From the NCBI GenBank assembly GCA_018304295.1, contig JAGVWK010000044.1, positions 1 through 47,047 of the forward strand: a DNA stretch of 47,047 nt, written 5' to 3'. Below are positions 3,480 through 13,959 of this stretch, piece by piece (position 1 is the stretch's first letter; the number at the start of each line of letters is the position of its first letter). Under the pieces are notes generated by a model. It was not told where the DNA came from, ran no database searches, and worked only from the letters and a program-made list of their open reading frames with translations. The position numbers and the translations under genes are program-made. This DNA is from Microcaldota archaeon. GTDB lineage: Archaea > Micrarchaeota > Micrarchaeia > Anstonellales > Anstonellaceae.

Positions 3480-4250
3480 ATGCCCTTCATTTTCTCAGAT
3501 TCGCACTGCCACCTTGATTGCATGGGCGAGTATCCCCCCTCTTCCCACCCTGATTTTTTGCACATTACGTGCGGCTATTCGCGCAAAAGCAACGCAAAAA
3601 ACTTTGAAATCGCAAAAAACAACCCGAACGTTTTTTGCTGCCTTGGCATAGCTCCACAGGAGGCAATGAAGTTTGAAAACGTGCAGGAGGAAATCGCGCA
3701 CGCAGAAAGCGAGATAATGGCATTCCATTCGCAGCTGCCGCAAAAGATTGTCGCAATAGGGGAGATAGGGCTTGATTTTCATTGGGCAAAAAACCCGCAC
3801 GAGCGCGAAAAGCAGGCGCAGTGCTTCCTTTCAATGCTTTCACTTGCAAAAAGGCTTTCCCTGCCGGTTGTGATACACTCGCGGGACTCAATGGACGAAG
3901 TGATAAGCGTGCTTGAGAGGGAACGCCCGCAAAAAATAATGATGCACTGCTATTCAGGAAGCGAGCAGCAGACAAAAAGGCTGCTTCCCCTTGGCGCGAC
4001 CCTCTCCATCCCGCCACTGCGCTCCAAGGAGAGAAAGAAAGCCATTAAATTAGCTGGCATGCACAATATGGTTGCAGAGACGGACGCGCCCTACATAGGC
4101 AAATTTCCTCAGGACGTGCAGGCAAGCATCCAGATGGTTGCGGATGCGCTTGGCATCCCGTTTGAAGAGGCGCAAAAGGCGGCAGTGCAGAACACAATGG
4201 GGTTCTTTGGAATAGGCGGACTTGGCATAAGCGGGTGGGAAAATGTTTGA
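3480..4250 (+). CDS. TatD-family metal-dependent hydrolase/DNase
   Basis: [44 protein letters not shown] motifs. Confidence 0.9.
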
Positions 4251-4719
4251 GCAGCTCAAAAACCTCAAGACGATTTTCAGGCAAAAGAAGGTGGAAGGCA
4301 AAAATATCGCCCTTCTTATAGACGGCCCAAACGTTATACGGCGCGAAATGAACCTTGATTTGCAAAAAGTGCGACATGAGGTTGAAAAGCACGGCACAAT
4401 AAAGGTGGGGCGCATTTTTCTTGACCAATACGCTTCCGACAAGCTCATAGAAGCAATGGTGAATCAGGGCTTTGAGCCTAAAATAACAACCGGCGATGTG
4501 GACGTTACAATGGCCGTTGAGGCAATGGAGCAGGTGTTCAACCCACACATACACGTGATAGCGCTCATGACGCGCGACATAGATTTTCGCCCGGTGCTTG
4601 TGAAGGCAAAGGAGCTGGGAAAAGAAACAATCGTGATAGGCGCGGAGCCGGGCTTTTCAGTTGCATTGCGCAACACCGCGGACATTGTGATACTCGCAGA
4701 GGCAAGCAAGAAGCCCTAA
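4243..4719 (+). CDS. NYN domain (LabA/DUF88-like) protein, putative RNase
   Basis: [53 protein letters not shown]. Overlaps the end of the TatD gene. Confidence 0.85.
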
Positions 4720-6931: not shown

Positions 6932-7204
6932 ATGGACATAGAACTGGTGAAAATATCCTCCCGCGGGCAGTTCGTCCTTCCTCTTTCCATGCGCAAGCGC
7001 TTGAAAATAAGCCAAGGCGAACGTTTCATGGTAGTGGAAGACATGGGTTCAATAGTGCTCAAGCCCCTAAAGAGCCTAAAGAACAGCATAGAGGAAGAAC
7101 TATACCTCATGGAAGAGGCGGCAAAAGGCTGGAAAGAAATCAAGAAGGGCAAGGTTACCAGCATGTCAAAGGAAAAGTTCCTCAAGGAGCTGTCCGAATG
7201 GTAA
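6932..7204 (+). CDS. AbrB/MazE-like antitoxin
   Basis: VKISSRGQFVLPLSMRKRLKISQGERFMVVEDMGSIVLKPL swapped-hairpin motif. Overlaps the downstream RelE ORF. Confidence 0.8.
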   Translation: MDIELVKISSRGQFVLPLSMRKRLKISQGERFMVVEDMGSIVLKPLKSLKNSIEEELYLMEEAAKGWKEIKKGKVTSMSKEKFLKELSEW

Positions 7205-7446
7205 GAGACGTTTCCTATACTGATTCTTTCAAGAGAACCGTTGGCAAGCTCAAGGATGCTGCATTGCAGGAACGGCTGAAGAAGCAAATAACCGAAATAA
7301 TAGAGCGGCTGGACATCGGTAAGCCGCTTGTTTTCCAGCGCAAAGGCGAACGAAGCGTCCGTGTCCCGCCTTTTCGCATAATTTACGCATGGAAAGACGA
7401 TAGCATATGCTTCCTTCGCTTTGGCAAGCGCGACAGCGTGTATTGA
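7198..7446 (+). CDS. RelE/ParE-superfamily toxin
   Basis: Small basic protein, DVSYTDSFKRTVGKLKDAALQERLKKQITEII...RVPPFRIIYAWKDDSICFLRFGKRDSVY, with RIIYA..FLRFGKRD typical of RelE. Confidence 0.8.
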   Translation: MVRDVSYTDSFKRTVGKLKDAALQERLKKQITEIIERLDIGKPLVFQRKGERSVRVPPFRIIYAWKDDSICFLRFGKRDSVY

Positions 7447-9182: not shown

Positions 9183-9614
9183 CTATTTTAGCAGGTTTTC
9201 ATCAAAGCCTGCAATTTTCAGCAAGTCCAGCGTGGAATAAATTTTTACAAAGTTCTGCTGCTTGAGCTTCTTGTCATTTGACCAAAGCGCAGCATCCTCG
9301 CCCAAATACATTGCAAGCGCCAAATATTCCGCGTCTTTTTTATCCGGGCTTGCTTGCCTCGCATATTTGCGGAATATTGCAAACATTTCAGGCTTTACAA
9401 ATTTTATCCTTGATTTGAAAACCCCGAGCACTTTTTCAAAATCTTCCTTTTCCGGCTTTGCCTTGGAGATTATCTCCTGCCAGTGCTCTTCCAATTCGGC
9501 AAGCATATACTCCGGTGAAAAGAGCTCAAGCCCCTCATCCATCAAAAGCAGGCGGGTAGCACTCTGCCTGATGAGCGCAGCTATGATTATGTTTGCATCC
9601 ACTACGAGCTTCAT
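9183..9614 (-). CDS. PIN-domain protein (VapC-like)
   Basis: MKLVVDANIIIAAL, DKKDAEYLALAMYLGEDAALWSNDKKL. Overlaps an upstream small ORF. Confidence 0.82.
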   Translation of the reverse strand: MKLVVDANIIIAALIRQSATRLLLMDEGLELFSPEYMLAELEEHWQEIISKAKPEKEDFEKVLGVFKSRIKFVKPEMFAIFRKYARQASPDKKDAEYLALAMYLGEDAALWSNDKKLKQQNFVKIYSTLDLLKIAGFDENLLK

Positions 9615-9865
9615 TGCATCGCCTGCTTCTTTTTCTTTGCAAGCTCGGCTTCAACCCTTCTTGCAATTCCTGCGTTTATTTTTGCTCCTATTTCCAGCGC
9701 ATCCTTCTCCGTAAGCTTGCTATTGGATGCAAAGGCTTCCAGAATTTCAAGCTCACTTACACGGCGTTCAAATGCGGCAGTTGCAACTTGCGACCAATTC
9801 ACAAATTTAATCTTTTTCATTTTCTCCCGCAACTCAGTTGGCACGGACACTGAAACTATTTCCAT
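9611..9865 (-). CDS. VapB-like antitoxin partner of the PIN protein
   Basis: MEIVSVSVPTELREKMKKIKFVNWSQVATAAFERRVSELE, RHH-like. Start refined from the 107-aa ORF. 4-nt overlap with the PIN ORF. Confidence 0.65.
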   Translation of the reverse strand: MEIVSVSVPTELREKMKKIKFVNWSQVATAAFERRVSELEILEAFASNSKLTEKDALEIGAKINAGIARRVEAELAKKKKQAMQ

Positions 9866-9874
9866 CAAACCACC

Positions 9875-9892
9875 CTTAATAATCTTAATAAT
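9875..9892. repeat. Tandem 9-bp repeat CTTAATAAT x2 upstream of VapB-like gene
   Basis: CTTAATAAT at 9875-9883 and 9884-9892. Confidence 0.6.
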
Positions 9893-9941
9893 AATATTTA
9901 TAATAATTGCCGCTGCTAGGCAGAAAAATCCCAAAAAGCGG

Positions 9942-10139: not shown

Positions 10140-10216
10140 AACAGGAATAATTATAAACTTGATATTAATAGTAAATACTTAGAATACTTAGGAAAACAAG
10201 TAAACTGGGTGGGAGC

Positions 10217-11230
10217 TTGGAAGGTACAAACGCTATTTTTGCAATATTAATGGTGGCGGGCATTCTTTTGCTTGCGGGTTGCACTTCGACCCAAGCGGAC
10301 AATAACCAGCAGGCAGTGCAGCAACAATCAGCAGTGCAGCCGCAAGCCCCAAACTCTAACAATATGCAGCAACCACCTGCCCAAATGCAAACAAGCCCGC
10401 CATTGCCAGAGGAACCAACTGCGCCAGAAATAACCGTGGGCGCACCAGATACGGTATCCAAATTCACATCGGCATCGGAAGGCGAAGTTACCCGCTTCTA
10501 TTTCATGCTCCAGGACTCCGATGGGCGCAATACAGTGTCAGATGGCAGGGCAGCACTGCGAATATACGATGACACAAATGAAACGCTTTATTATAAGGAA
10601 GTTGAAGTGAAATCATCGGATTTTGTGCCATATAAATTCCCGCTTACCGGGCAAAAAATGGGCGACGCTTACGAATGGAGGATAAAGGACTCAGACATAA
10701 AAAAAGGCATTGCCACTTACTGGGGCTCGGCAGAACTTACTTTCACGACTCCAAGTGGGAACCGCATGATTGCAGAATCAACAACGGTTTCAATACCAAC
10801 TTATACTGATGAGGAACTTGAGCAAAAATCAGAACAAGACTACCAAGTGCGCGCATTCCAGCTTAACCAAAAAATGCAGAAAGGCAGTTTTGAAGTTACC
10901 GTAATAAAATACGGCTTTTTCAACGCTACCAGCTTTGGCAAAATTGCCCAATACTTGCGCGTGGACATAAGCACAGTGAATACTGGCTCCGAAACAGAGT
11001 ATTTCTCCCCAAACAGCATGTCCTTGCTGGGCCCAAACGGGCAGCAATATGACACAGCCTATATAGGCACACTTGATACCTACAAATCACTCTATCCAGG
11101 GAGCTATGCGCAGGGATATGTGCTATTTGAAGAAGTGCCAACAGACGCAATTGGGCTCAAATTGGTATTTGAGCTGGGGTATGATGCAGATTATGACAAG
11201 TACGTCTTTGAATACCCGCTGGGTGGCTAA
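10217..11230 (+). CDS. Putative lipoprotein with C-terminal DUF4352-like domain
   Basis: TTG start, hydrophobic N-terminus with lipobox LLAGC, Q/P-rich linker. C-terminal KGSFEVTVIKYGFF...YLRVDISTVNTGSE...YPGSYAQGYVLFEEVP. Confidence 0.65.
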   Translation: MEGTNAIFAILMVAGILLLAGCTSTQADNNQQAVQQQSAVQPQAPNSNNMQQPPAQMQTSPPLPEEPTAPEITVGAPDTVSKFTSASEGEVTRFYFMLQDSDGRNTVSDGRAALRIYDDTNETLYYKEVEVKSSDFVPYKFPLTGQKMGDAYEWRIKDSDIKKGIATYWGSAELTFTTPSGNRMIAESTTVSIPTYTDEELEQKSEQDYQVRAFQLNQKMQKGSFEVTVIKYGFFNATSFGKIAQYLRVDISTVNTGSETEYFSPNSMSLLGPNGQQYDTAYIGTLDTYKSLYPGSYAQGYVLFEEVPTDAIGLKLVFELGYDADYDKYVFEYPLGG

Positions 11231-11584
11231 ATGGAAACAAACGGGACAAACCCAAAGCGCCTTGTTGCAAATTTCTTCTTTTTGGTTGCAGCAGTCTTGC
11301 TGCTGTACATTTTGGTATCTGCATTCTCGGGCCTGGGCAGTTCAGTATGCACTTCGGAGGAGATTGCACGCGGCTTAAGCAAATGCAATAACTCCGTTTC
11401 CCCTCTCGCAGGCTTTCTCGCGGGCGGCATAATGGGCGGGCTTTGCTGTTTTCCGCCAGCAATAGTGTTCTTCATACTGGGCGCATTTTTCTGGAGCGGC
11501 GCAAAGAAAGACGATTTGCGCGATTTGGAAATACGCGCATACCACAAAGGAGAGAAAGTGGGCAAAAAAACAGAAGCGATTTAG
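11231..11584 (+). CDS. Small membrane protein, two predicted TM helices
   Basis: VANFFFLVAAVLLLYILVSAF and AGFLAGGIMGGLCCFPPAIVFFILGAFFWSGA. Directly follows the lipoprotein gene. Confidence 0.6.
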   Translation: METNGTNPKRLVANFFFLVAAVLLLYILVSAFSGLGSSVCTSEEIARGLSKCNNSVSPLAGFLAGGIMGGLCCFPPAIVFFILGAFFWSGAKKDDLRDLEIRAYHKGEKVGKKTEAI

Positions 11585-11614
11585 CGCATGGCATATTCGC
11601 CAACATCCACGCGC
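11581..11614. repeat. Left copy of 34-bp direct repeat (idi 3'-end remnant)
   Basis: ttagcgcatggcAtattcgccaacatccacgcgc. Matches 12925-12958 at 33/34 positions. Confidence 0.9.
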
Positions 11615-11633
11615 GCCAACGCACATATTTACC

Positions 11634-12836
11634 CTACAGATCAGTCGCCAAGAGCACGCCTTTTTGCGCCGAATATGATTTGGAAACCACATAACTTTCT
11701 TTTAGCCCGATTTCCTTTGAAACGCGTGCCGTGCGCTCAACGTCTCTTTCGGTCGCAGTCTCCTTAACTTCAAGCGCCGCTGCTTCCTTTGGAAGCACAA
11801 AATCTATTTCAAGCCCGCTTCTCCTCTGGTAATATTTCACCTCGCTGCGGCGTGCCAATGCAAGAAAAACAGCGTTCTCAAATACCGCCCCTGAAGATAC
11901 CTGCGCAAAGCGGTTGAGGATGCCGCTGTCGCATGCATATACTTTTTTTGCCCCCGAAACTTCCCTATCCGGGCTTTTGCTGAATGGCGGCACAAGGTGC
12001 ACGAAATAAGTCGCCTCAAGGAAGGCAAGATACGCATACAGGCTTTCCCTGCTTATCCCTGTTTCAGATGAAATTTTGCTTATGTCAAGTTTTGAGCCGC
12101 ACCTGCGCAAAAGCAGCATTATGAAGTCCTGCAACTTCCTGATGTCCCGAAAATCCGCAAGCGTTTTCACGTCTTTTTCAAAATAGGATCTGAATATGTC
12201 TTCAAGCGCAGCCTCCTTGTCAGGAATGCTTTGCGCCAGCGCCACTTTTGGAAAGCCGCCATATTTGAGGTATTCTTCGTACAGCCGTATTTCACGCGCA
12301 TATGCGACTTCATTTTTTCCCTCCATCTTGCTCGCAAAGCCTGCTGCAAACTCTTTTTTCCTGTTGCAAAACCAAAGAAATTCCTCAAAGTCAAGTGGAT
12401 AAAGTTCATATAATATTTTTCTTCCCGCTAGGCTTTCTGGGAAAAGGCCTTTCAAATAAAACGAGGCGGAACCTGTAACAAAAAATTGCACGTCATAATG
12501 GTCAAATAGGTATTTTACCGCCTTTATGCATTCAGGCGCGGTTTGTATCTCATCAAGGAATAGGTATGCTTTTTCTGTCTTGGTTATCCCATACACCTTT
12601 AGGTTTTCCCAAATGCTATCATAATCTTTCTCTCCAAAAGCCTTCCTTACAATGGGGTTTTCCATGTCCAAAAAAGCCTTGTTTTTACTCTCCATTTCCC
12701 CGTAAAGCATGCGCATGAGCGTGGTTTTTCCCACTTGGCGCATCCCAGTGAGCACCACTATTGTCTTTTTGCCTATTTGCGCCCGCAGCGCAGGCAAAAG
12801 TTTTCTTGCGAATGCCATTTTATCCACTATATCCAT
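11634..12836 (-). CDS. AAA_14/DUF4143-type ATPase
   Basis: VVLTGMRQVGKTTLMRML Walker A, AYLFLDEIQTAPE Walker B, FFVTGSASFYLKGLFPESLAGRKILYELYPLDFEEFL, C-terminal RRSGLEIDFVLPKEAAALEVKET. Confidence 0.88.
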   Translation of the reverse strand: MDIVDKMAFARKLLPALRAQIGKKTIVVLTGMRQVGKTTLMRMLYGEMESKNKAFLDMENPIVRKAFGEKDYDSIWENLKVYGITKTEKAYLFLDEIQTAPECIKAVKYLFDHYDVQFFVTGSASFYLKGLFPESLAGRKILYELYPLDFEEFLWFCNRKKEFAAGFASKMEGKNEVAYAREIRLYEEYLKYGGFPKVALAQSIPDKEAALEDIFRSYFEKDVKTLADFRDIRKLQDFIMLLLRRCGSKLDISKISSETGISRESLYAYLAFLEATYFVHLVPPFSKSPDREVSGAKKVYACDSGILNRFAQVSSGAVFENAVFLALARRSEVKYYQRRSGLEIDFVLPKEAAALEVKETATERDVERTARVSKEIGLKESYVVSKSYSAQKGVLLATDL

Positions 12837-12877
12837 TATCCACCAAAAAGCTTATATACAAAGCAGTCAATTTTGAA

Positions 12878-12910
12878 CCAATTTTGTCGGTTACCGCCCT
12901 ACAAAATTGG
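12878..12910. promoter_or_regulatory. Perfect 10-bp inverted repeat (hairpin or operator) between idi and the AAA_14 gene
   Basis: CCAATTTTGT (12878-12887), 13-nt loop, ACAAAATTGG (12901-12910). Confidence 0.6.
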
Positions 12911-12924
12911 ATGCATTCTGCCTG

Positions 12925-12958
12925 TTAGCGCATGGCGTATTCGCCAACATCCACGCGC
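12925..12958. repeat. Right copy of 34-bp direct repeat (true 3' end of idi)
   Basis: ttagcgcatggcGtattcgccaacatccacgcgc, encoding VDVGEYAMR-stop on the minus strand. Confidence 0.9.
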
Positions 12959-13959
12959 AGGCATTGAAGAAGCTGTGCAGTCCTGCCTGTAACAAATACC
13001 CTTGCTTTTGCAAGCTTCTCAAGGTTCGCGCTTCCTGTTAGGAACATCGCAGTCCTCAACTGCATTTTCCAGTTTTTTATTTCAAGGGATGCGTCTTTTG
13101 CAGCTAGGAACGGGTGCGCCCCAGCAGCCATTTTTGCCCCAAGCGCAATGCTTTTGGCAGCGTCAAGGCCGCTTCTTACCCCTCCAGAAGCAATTAGCGG
13201 CAAATGGTACGCGCATGAAACAATGCTCACAACAGTGGGAATTCCCCATTCCCTAAAGCCCTCAACTGGCTTCCCGCGCAAATACTCAACTTTGCTCCAT
13301 GAGGTGCCACCCGCCCCAGATACATTGAGCATCTGCACGCCTGCATTTTTCAGCCGAACTGCAGCATCAGCGGAAATGCCAGCACCTGTCTCTTTTGCAA
13401 TAATTGGAATCCTGAGCGCATCCGACAACTTTGAAATTGCGGAAAGCACCCCTTCAAAATTCCTGTCCCCCTCAGGCTGCACGGCCTCCTGTAGCGCATT
13501 AAGGTGCACAGCAAGCGCGTTTGCATCAATTGCCTCAAGCGCGCTTTTTATTTTCGCAACCGGATAATGCGCAATTTGCGCAGCCCCTATGTTCCCTATT
13601 ATGAATACGTCCGGCGCAACGTCGCGCACCCTGTAGGTCTGCGTTAAAATGGGGTTTTCCACCATTGCGCGCTGGGACCCGAGCCCAAAAGGCACGTTGT
13701 GCTCCGCAGCAACAGCCGCAAGCTTCCTGTTTATCTCTTTTGCCTTTGGGTACCCGCCCGTCATTCCGTCTATTATGAGCGGCGCGTCCATCCTGCGCCC
13801 AAAAAAGCTCGTGCTTATGTCTATTTTCCCCATGTCAATTTCAGGCAGGGAGTTGTGCAAAAATTCAATGTCCGAAAAACCCGCGCCGCGCGCATACTGG
13901 ACATCCTCCTCAAGGCATATCCTCACGTGCTGCTCCTTTCTTGACTGTATTCTCGCCAT
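12925..13959 (-). CDS. fni: Isopentenyl-diphosphate delta-isomerase, type 2 (FMN-dependent)
   Basis: MARIQSRKEQHVRICLEEDVQ, LIIDGMTGGYPKAKEINRKLAAVAAEHNVPFGLGSQRAMVE, VSGAGGTSWSKVE, IASGGVRSGLDAAKSIALGA. Confidence 0.92.
   Translation of the reverse strand: MARIQSRKEQHVRICLEEDVQYARGAGFSDIEFLHNSLPEIDMGKIDISTSFFGRRMDAPLIIDGMTGGYPKAKEINRKLAAVAAEHNVPFGLGSQRAMVENPILTQTYRVRDVAPDVFIIGNIGAAQIAHYPVAKIKSALEAIDANALAVHLNALQEAVQPEGDRNFEGVLSAISKLSDALRIPIIAKETGAGISADAAVRLKNAGVQMLNVSGAGGTSWSKVEYLRGKPVEGFREWGIPTVVSIVSCAYHLPLIASGGVRSGLDAAKSIALGAKMAAGAHPFLAAKDASLEIKNWKMQLRTAMFLTGSANLEKLAKARVFVTGRTAQLLQCLRVDVGEYAMR

Follow-up and report, generated by a model that had tools for sequence, protein, structure and literature searches.

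A probable mobile one-gene cassette encoding an AAA_14-DUF4143 ATPase at the duplicated 3' end of idi in a micrarchaeal genome

How did a single ATPase gene come to lie between two copies of the end of another gene, and how did that gene stay intact? This question is raised by the window, that is, the whole 47,047-nt stretch of DNA that was analysed, in which the end of idi, the gene for type 2 isopentenyl-diphosphate delta-isomerase, is present twice. The window comes from a metagenome bin that is split into 49 contigs and is 84% complete. A repeat search delimited the duplication as a direct repeat of 34 nt, 33 of them identical, at 11581-11614 and 12925-12958, in the same orientation and with a spacing of 1344. 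Read on the minus strand, both copies encode RVDVGEYAMR-stop, and the lone difference between them, TAC/TAT, is synonymous. No third copy of the 34-bp repeat was found in the 1.05-Mb genome when up to 3 mismatches were allowed. The features of the locus are listed here; the congener is the sole other species of the genus available for comparison.

10217..11230, plus strand: gene for a 337-aa DUF4352 protein, missing at the corresponding place in the congener
11231..11584, plus strand: 117-aa gene, without family match, missing from the congener, convergent with idi before the insertion
11581..11614, minus strand: left copy of the repeat, a non-functional remnant of the idi 3' end (RVDVGEYAMR-stop), parted from idi by the cassette
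11615..12924, minus strand: cassette between the copies, consisting of a promoter region, one ORF and 19 bp past its stop
11634..12836, minus strand: AAA_14-DUF4143 gene, 400 aa, AAA+ ATPase and predicted PD-(D/E)XK-type domain
12878..12910, no strand: 13-bp inverted repeat (12/13), CCAATTTTGTCGG...CCTACAAAATTGG, upstream of the ATPase promoter
12925..12958, minus strand: right copy of the repeat, functional, the true 3' end of idi
12925..13959, minus strand: idi, type 2 isopentenyl-diphosphate delta-isomerase, the target gene (TIGR02151, E=4e-114)

Only one gene, on the minus strand at 11634-12836, lies between the copies. The cassette has a GC content of 45.1%, compared to 50.6% for the window. 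On direct reading, a TATA-like box, TATATAAG, was seen about 25 nt upstream of the ATG of the ATPase gene, and the inverted repeat at 12878..12910 is a possible operator of this gene. The 117-aa gene takes its TAG stop from the left copy, and deletion of 1344 bp makes the convergent stops of this gene and of idi overlap in TTAG. Thus, the two stops would have overlapped before the insertion. A sequence-only reading of this DNA had already described the 33/34 match, with the right copy as the real end of idi and the left copy as its synonymous counterpart, as well as the stop of the 117-aa gene within the left copy, the TTAG overlap after removal of 1,344 bp and the lack of an integrase. We reproduced its coordinates and its reading of the copies, direct inspection showed the same stop and overlap, and the single ORF between the repeats has no recombinase domain.

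The same reading predicted an empty site in relatives, in which the stop of the 117-aa gene would directly overlap idi. Such a site was not found, as the sole congener, which is collinear with the window over 2-22 kb, lacks the whole 10.2-12.9 kb block (10209-12924), including the 337-aa and 117-aa genes, and its idi is followed by 246 unrelated bp. Since these two genes are missing along with the cassette, the congener does not represent a clean pre-insertion allele. The region around the idi end is variable, and the variation extends beyond the cassette. A scan of genome contigs with idi as the query found no match outside the congener (record LFW-35) and distant archaea, and no relatives of the 117-aa and 337-aa proteins were present among the related-archaea loci then collected. 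At the one codon that differs between the copies, the idi end of the congener carries TAT, as the left copy does, too slight a likeness to show which copy is the native one. The window ATPase had no match in the congener and about ten matches in the window genome, seven of them via the DUF4143 profile. Two toxin-antitoxin pairs of the window, at 6932-7446 (ParE-type) and 9183-9934 (PIN_2-type), are missing at the collinear place in the congener.

The idi repeat greatly exceeds what chance would produce. A scan for remnants of gene ends, unbiased and covering 1050 genes in 1.1 Mb, returned 21 hits and no control hit; the controls gave 0 at a score of at least 19, and the idi repeat scores 31. 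After paralogues and repeats, short-spaced tandem copies and weak hits had been discounted, idi was the only gene of the scan with a remnant of at least 30 bp and gene-sized cargo.

DUF4143 genes from related archaeal genomes were surveyed together with their flanks, of which as much as 600 bp from each side was aligned locally. Direct repeats with a score of at least 16 were present on both sides of 39 of the 118 DUF4143 genes, compared to 1 of 465 mismatched flanks. When an ungapped score of at least 18 was used, repeats were observed at 31 of 117 DUF4143 loci and at 2 of about 200 other ORFs of the same loci; both of these control ORFs adjoin a DUF4143 locus, and a third match was the window gene itself. 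A second set, mostly of genomes outside the first, gave 7 of 31 DUF4143 genes and 0 of 186 mismatched flanks at a score of at least 20, the null being less clean at a score of 16 (6/186). The DUF234 ATPases, a sister family of the same general design, showed repeats in 6 of 27 cases at a score of at least 20, and PIN toxin genes of the same genomes in 0 of 25 (1/25 at 18). Repeat length ranged from about 18 to more than 200 bp across loci. Overall, about one in four to one in three of the sampled DUF4143 genes in related archaea bear the signature on their flanks, and the 39 positive genes include further DUF4143 ATPases bounded by duplicated 3' ends of their neighbours, for which the sequence-only reading had advised a search.

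Judged from flanking sequences, the DUF4143 family is highly mobile between loci: pairs from different genomes with 65-81% identity mostly have unrelated flanks, among them the pair formed by copy L079 of the window genome and a copy in genome G010 (80% identity). The segment at idi is probably a mobile one-gene cassette (PADLOC PDC-S01 type) that entered by recombination restoring the idi end with a donor end.

Which sites do such repeats duplicate? At about 14 loci of the DUF4143 and DUF234 families, one repeat copy falls within the end region of a neighbouring gene. According to Pfam, these targets encode a phosphoglucosamine mutase-type protein (GlmM; L117), an NFACT protein (L125), an arginase family protein (L137), endonuclease III (L140), an AAA_14 protein (L118), glycosyltransferases (L046, at the 5' end, and L198), triosephosphate isomerase (TIM; L201), metallo-beta-lactamase RNase J-like proteins (L204 and L097) and a DUF7343 protein (L187); the targets at L061, L190 and L049 have no family match. 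At an added locus, L374, the repeat is the 3' half of tRNA-Cys. The 3'-end repeats finish at a distance of about 0-22 nt to the stop. Of the 39 DUF4143 repeats, about two thirds are intergenic, and some of these may be part of the element, as L054 and L091 have theirs in common. Inspection of 16 junction sets by eye revealed no motif common to the cassette borders.

In three pairs of DUF4143 loci from different genomes (L054/L091, L045/L051 and L040/L085), similar AT-rich, partly palindromic direct repeats were observed near either end of the ATPase gene, and they are possibly sites carried by the element, not target duplications. As for orientation, the ATPase gene is convergent with its target in all five DUF234 cases (L204, L187, L201, L198 and L190), and the DUF4143 gene-end cases (L034, L117, L125, L137 and L140) are mostly co-directional with theirs.

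The end of the RNase J-like gene is a hotspot with several remnants in a row. In genome G025 (L260), the gene end is followed by a DUF234 insert and by three remnants of this same end, interspersed with other genes. G056 (L274) has four remnants, and the genes found between them are those for an ankyrin protein and HAD proteins and a DUF4143 gene; one remnant in G071 lies beyond non-ATPase cargo. Repeated insertion at the intact end, with the older ends pushed outward, explains these serial remnants. They begin 21 to 48 codons before the gene end, a variation to which erosion may contribute and which argues against a single fixed recombination site. Some of the inserts at this hotspot are free of ATPase genes and carry HAD, ankyrin or acylphosphatase genes. 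This mixed cargo indicates that the passenger may be a gene other than the ATPase, which is not always needed.

A domain search of the window protein returned AAA_14 and DUF4143 domains and nothing else. The protein has a Walker A motif (GMRQVGKTT), DE at 95-96, and the residues E320, D345 and E356-V-K358. In its predicted structure (mean pLDDT 89.5), an AAA+ domain is followed at the C-terminus by an alpha/beta domain, in which D345, E356 and K358 sit on core strands 343-348 and 353-358. The model thus places a catalytic D and an ExK on core strands, as in PD-(D/E)XK nucleases, and we regard the protein as a predicted nuclease. The complete D-E-K motif is kept in only 55 of 119 DUF4143 relatives, and we observed no correlation across the family between an intact nuclease motif and flanking repeats (p=0.33). 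Foldseek matched the window protein to Orc1/Cdc6, RuvB and STAND/NLR ATPases, and none of the PHROG and NCBIfam families matched the ATPase-nuclease. Its best PADLOC match was PDC-S01 (E=3e-67), and the DUF234 protein matched PDC-S27. In a 2026 survey (PMC12988326), PDC-S01 and PDC-S27 are unvalidated defence candidates with ATPase and PD-(D/E)XK domains. Both classes are described there as abundant in archaea, with 9986 PDC-S01 and 3503 PDC-S27 (together about 13,500), and PDC-S01 is ranked as the fourth commonest prokaryotic defence system although it is unvalidated.

Does the ATPase-nuclease bring about its own insertion? It may provoke insertion by cleaving the target in the manner of a homing endonuclease; we put this forward tentatively, as a real possibility but the least certain step of our account. 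The enrichment of repeats around the family, the single-gene content and the nuclease fold favour the nuclease as the maker of the break; the fact that roughly half of the family has lost part of the motif argues against it, as do the inserts free of ATPase genes. Alternatively, the segment might be passive cargo, namely a defence gene (PDC-S01) kept by selection and moved at homologous gene ends through the ordinary recombination of the host or by a trans-acting integrase. The profile matches to PDC-S01 and PDC-S27, which PMC12988326 treats as unvalidated defence candidates, are consistent with this notion, as are the Foldseek matches to STAND/NLR immune ATPases and the non-ATPase cargo at the RNase J hotspot. 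Moreover, the variable starts of the remnants in that hotspot are better explained by homologous recombination than by cutting at one fixed site. However, PIN toxin genes, which are mobile and plentiful too, lack the signature at a score of at least 20, and unrelated genes carrying it were rare in the unbiased scan. We consider passive transport unlikely, if still worth serious attention.

The differences between the two copies bear on another explanation, target-site duplication, in which a staggered break would have been filled in and two identical 34-bp copies would later have drifted. This would suit idi, where one base only differs. Other loci speak against it. At L061, the copies are identical at 129 of 150 positions and run into SPRMNE-stop in one case and QPRVNE-stop in the other. 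The tails are HSKFSKK-stop and HHLNAIKKK-stop at L137, and AGAFHP-stop and AGAF-stop at L201, where TTT in one copy corresponds to TTC in the other. Both copies at L204 end in LEL-stop, written with CTA in one and with TTG in the other, and the stops at L187 are TAA and TGA. At L125, the coding likeness extends upstream of the repeat with synonymous changes, and the same peptide is present in relatives. Homology at L061, L201, L204 and L125 runs beyond the high-identity part, with synonymous differences. Among the changed codons of the coding cases, not counting L125, whose ungapped comparison crosses an indel, 23 were synonymous and 14 were not.

The copies thus often differ like orthologues, each with its own stop, which indicates that one of them was imported from another lineage and disfavours a simple target-site duplication. 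Since the repeats also vary in length and end at stop codons, we consider such a duplication improbable. It is very improbable that the pattern reflects an assembly artefact, for which the fragmented bin might speak, or a chance duplication near an unrelated gene, since it recurs with different sequences in many genomes, long contigs included, and is lacking in the controls. Still less credible is a left copy conserved as a regulatory element unrelated to insertion, since its sequence is the coding end of idi, the ends of other genes and not this motif are duplicated elsewhere, and no conservation of the left copy without the cassette was seen.

The proposal of the sequence-only reading, insertion of the ATPase gene and restoration of idi by an incoming, divergent end, gains strong support from this comparison with many DUF4143 and DUF234 loci. 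The direction of import at idi does not, as the copies there differ by one synonymous base; import at idi rests on analogy with the other loci.

For a mobile cassette, we propose the following course of events. The cassette would have entered the idi 3' end carrying a donor copy of this end, so that, by analogy, the right copy would have arrived together with it. Recombination in the shared coding sequence, presumably homologous, would have joined the donor end to the resident idi, which would be why idi stays intact, and the last 34 bp of the resident gene would have stayed on the far side as the remnant. This might have happened by a single crossover of a circle bearing one gene end. It might also have happened by break repair copied from a donor in which the cassette stood between two gene ends, in which case the remnant would be the second homology arm.

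The closest known design is that of the mobile endonuclease ORFs (mORFs) of fungal mitochondria, described for Glomus atp6, atp9, cox2 and nad3 and for Allomyces atp6 (PMC3630166). There, too, one ORF stands at the 3' end of a gene, the donor C-terminus becomes part of a hybrid gene, its native counterpart is pushed downstream, and the copies differ mostly by synonymous changes. In our material, the architecture of idi fits an in-frame donor C-terminus with a displaced native one, and divergent copies are seen at other loci. In contrast to the LAGLIDADG or GIY-YIG endonucleases encoded by mORFs in mitochondria, the genes described here encode an AAA+ ATPase with a predicted PD-(D/E)XK domain on archaeal chromosomes, and the window protein has AAA_14 and DUF4143 domains only. 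Homing endonuclease genes (intronless homing) are similar in being single nuclease genes that use conserved target genes and spread by recombination; they differ from the present case, in which no interrupted recognition site is shown, the target end is duplicated and the protein family is another one. That the DUF4143/DUF234 ATPase-nucleases (PDC-S01 and PDC-S27) form a new class of homing-type selfish genes is a further step, which seems rather doubtful to us. Each nuclease would then cut the 3' end of a conserved gene and spread by break repair that replaces this end with the donor version, and the old end would remain as a remnant and as the homology arm for the next transfer.

Prophages and islands integrate via tyrosine recombinases at the 3' ends of tRNA or protein genes, for example e14 and phage 21 in icd. 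The likeness to att duplication that the sequence-only reading pointed out is fair: both borders carry direct repeats of a 3' end, that of a gene or, in at least one locus, that of a tRNA, and the incoming copy restores the gene. Unlike such islands, the unit studied here measures 1.3 kb and has no tyrosine or serine recombinase, its repeats vary in length and start, with no fixed core site within one target in the RNase J-like remnants, and its close relatives use many target genes. A DNA transposon was rejected, given that the borders have no matching inverted repeat, that repeat length is variable and that there is no transposase. The PDC-S01 and PDC-S27 classes share the single gene with ATPase and PD-(D/E)XK domains; they differ in being defined by predicted defence, and gene-end repeats or single-gene mobility are not mentioned in the available passages of PMC12988326.

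Mobile single genes that restore the end of their target are a known kind, which is now seen in a family so far listed as candidate defence. As the signature is shared across the family, genes that are very common and count as "candidate antiviral defence" take on the look of a mobile single-gene cassette. Few archaeal genes of unknown function are as common as those for DUF4143 and DUF234 ATPases. The signature gives them a mobile life style, and whether they are defence genes, selfish elements or both becomes testable. It further illustrates how short cassettes that encode no integrase can be passed from one archaeon to another with the target gene left unbroken. DUF4143 is named in a single paper of the literature searched, which was mostly without subscription journals, and an earlier description is possible.

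Two further observations were made during the surveys. At L112, a gene at 3548-4402 that begins MILMDKDNSLIVFQDKAIRRVWHQNQ (Bro-N-like by eye) and adjoins a DUF4143 gene is itself flanked by a diverged 31-bp direct repeat. Moreover, perfect duplications of gene 3' ends, of 29, 68 and 36 bp, were found at G034:C11 66001-67356, G034:C11 223269-225776 and G000:C34 31380-31976, respectively. In all three, the duplicate is just 60-160 bp or so downstream and no gene intervenes; they are possibly scars of lost cassettes.
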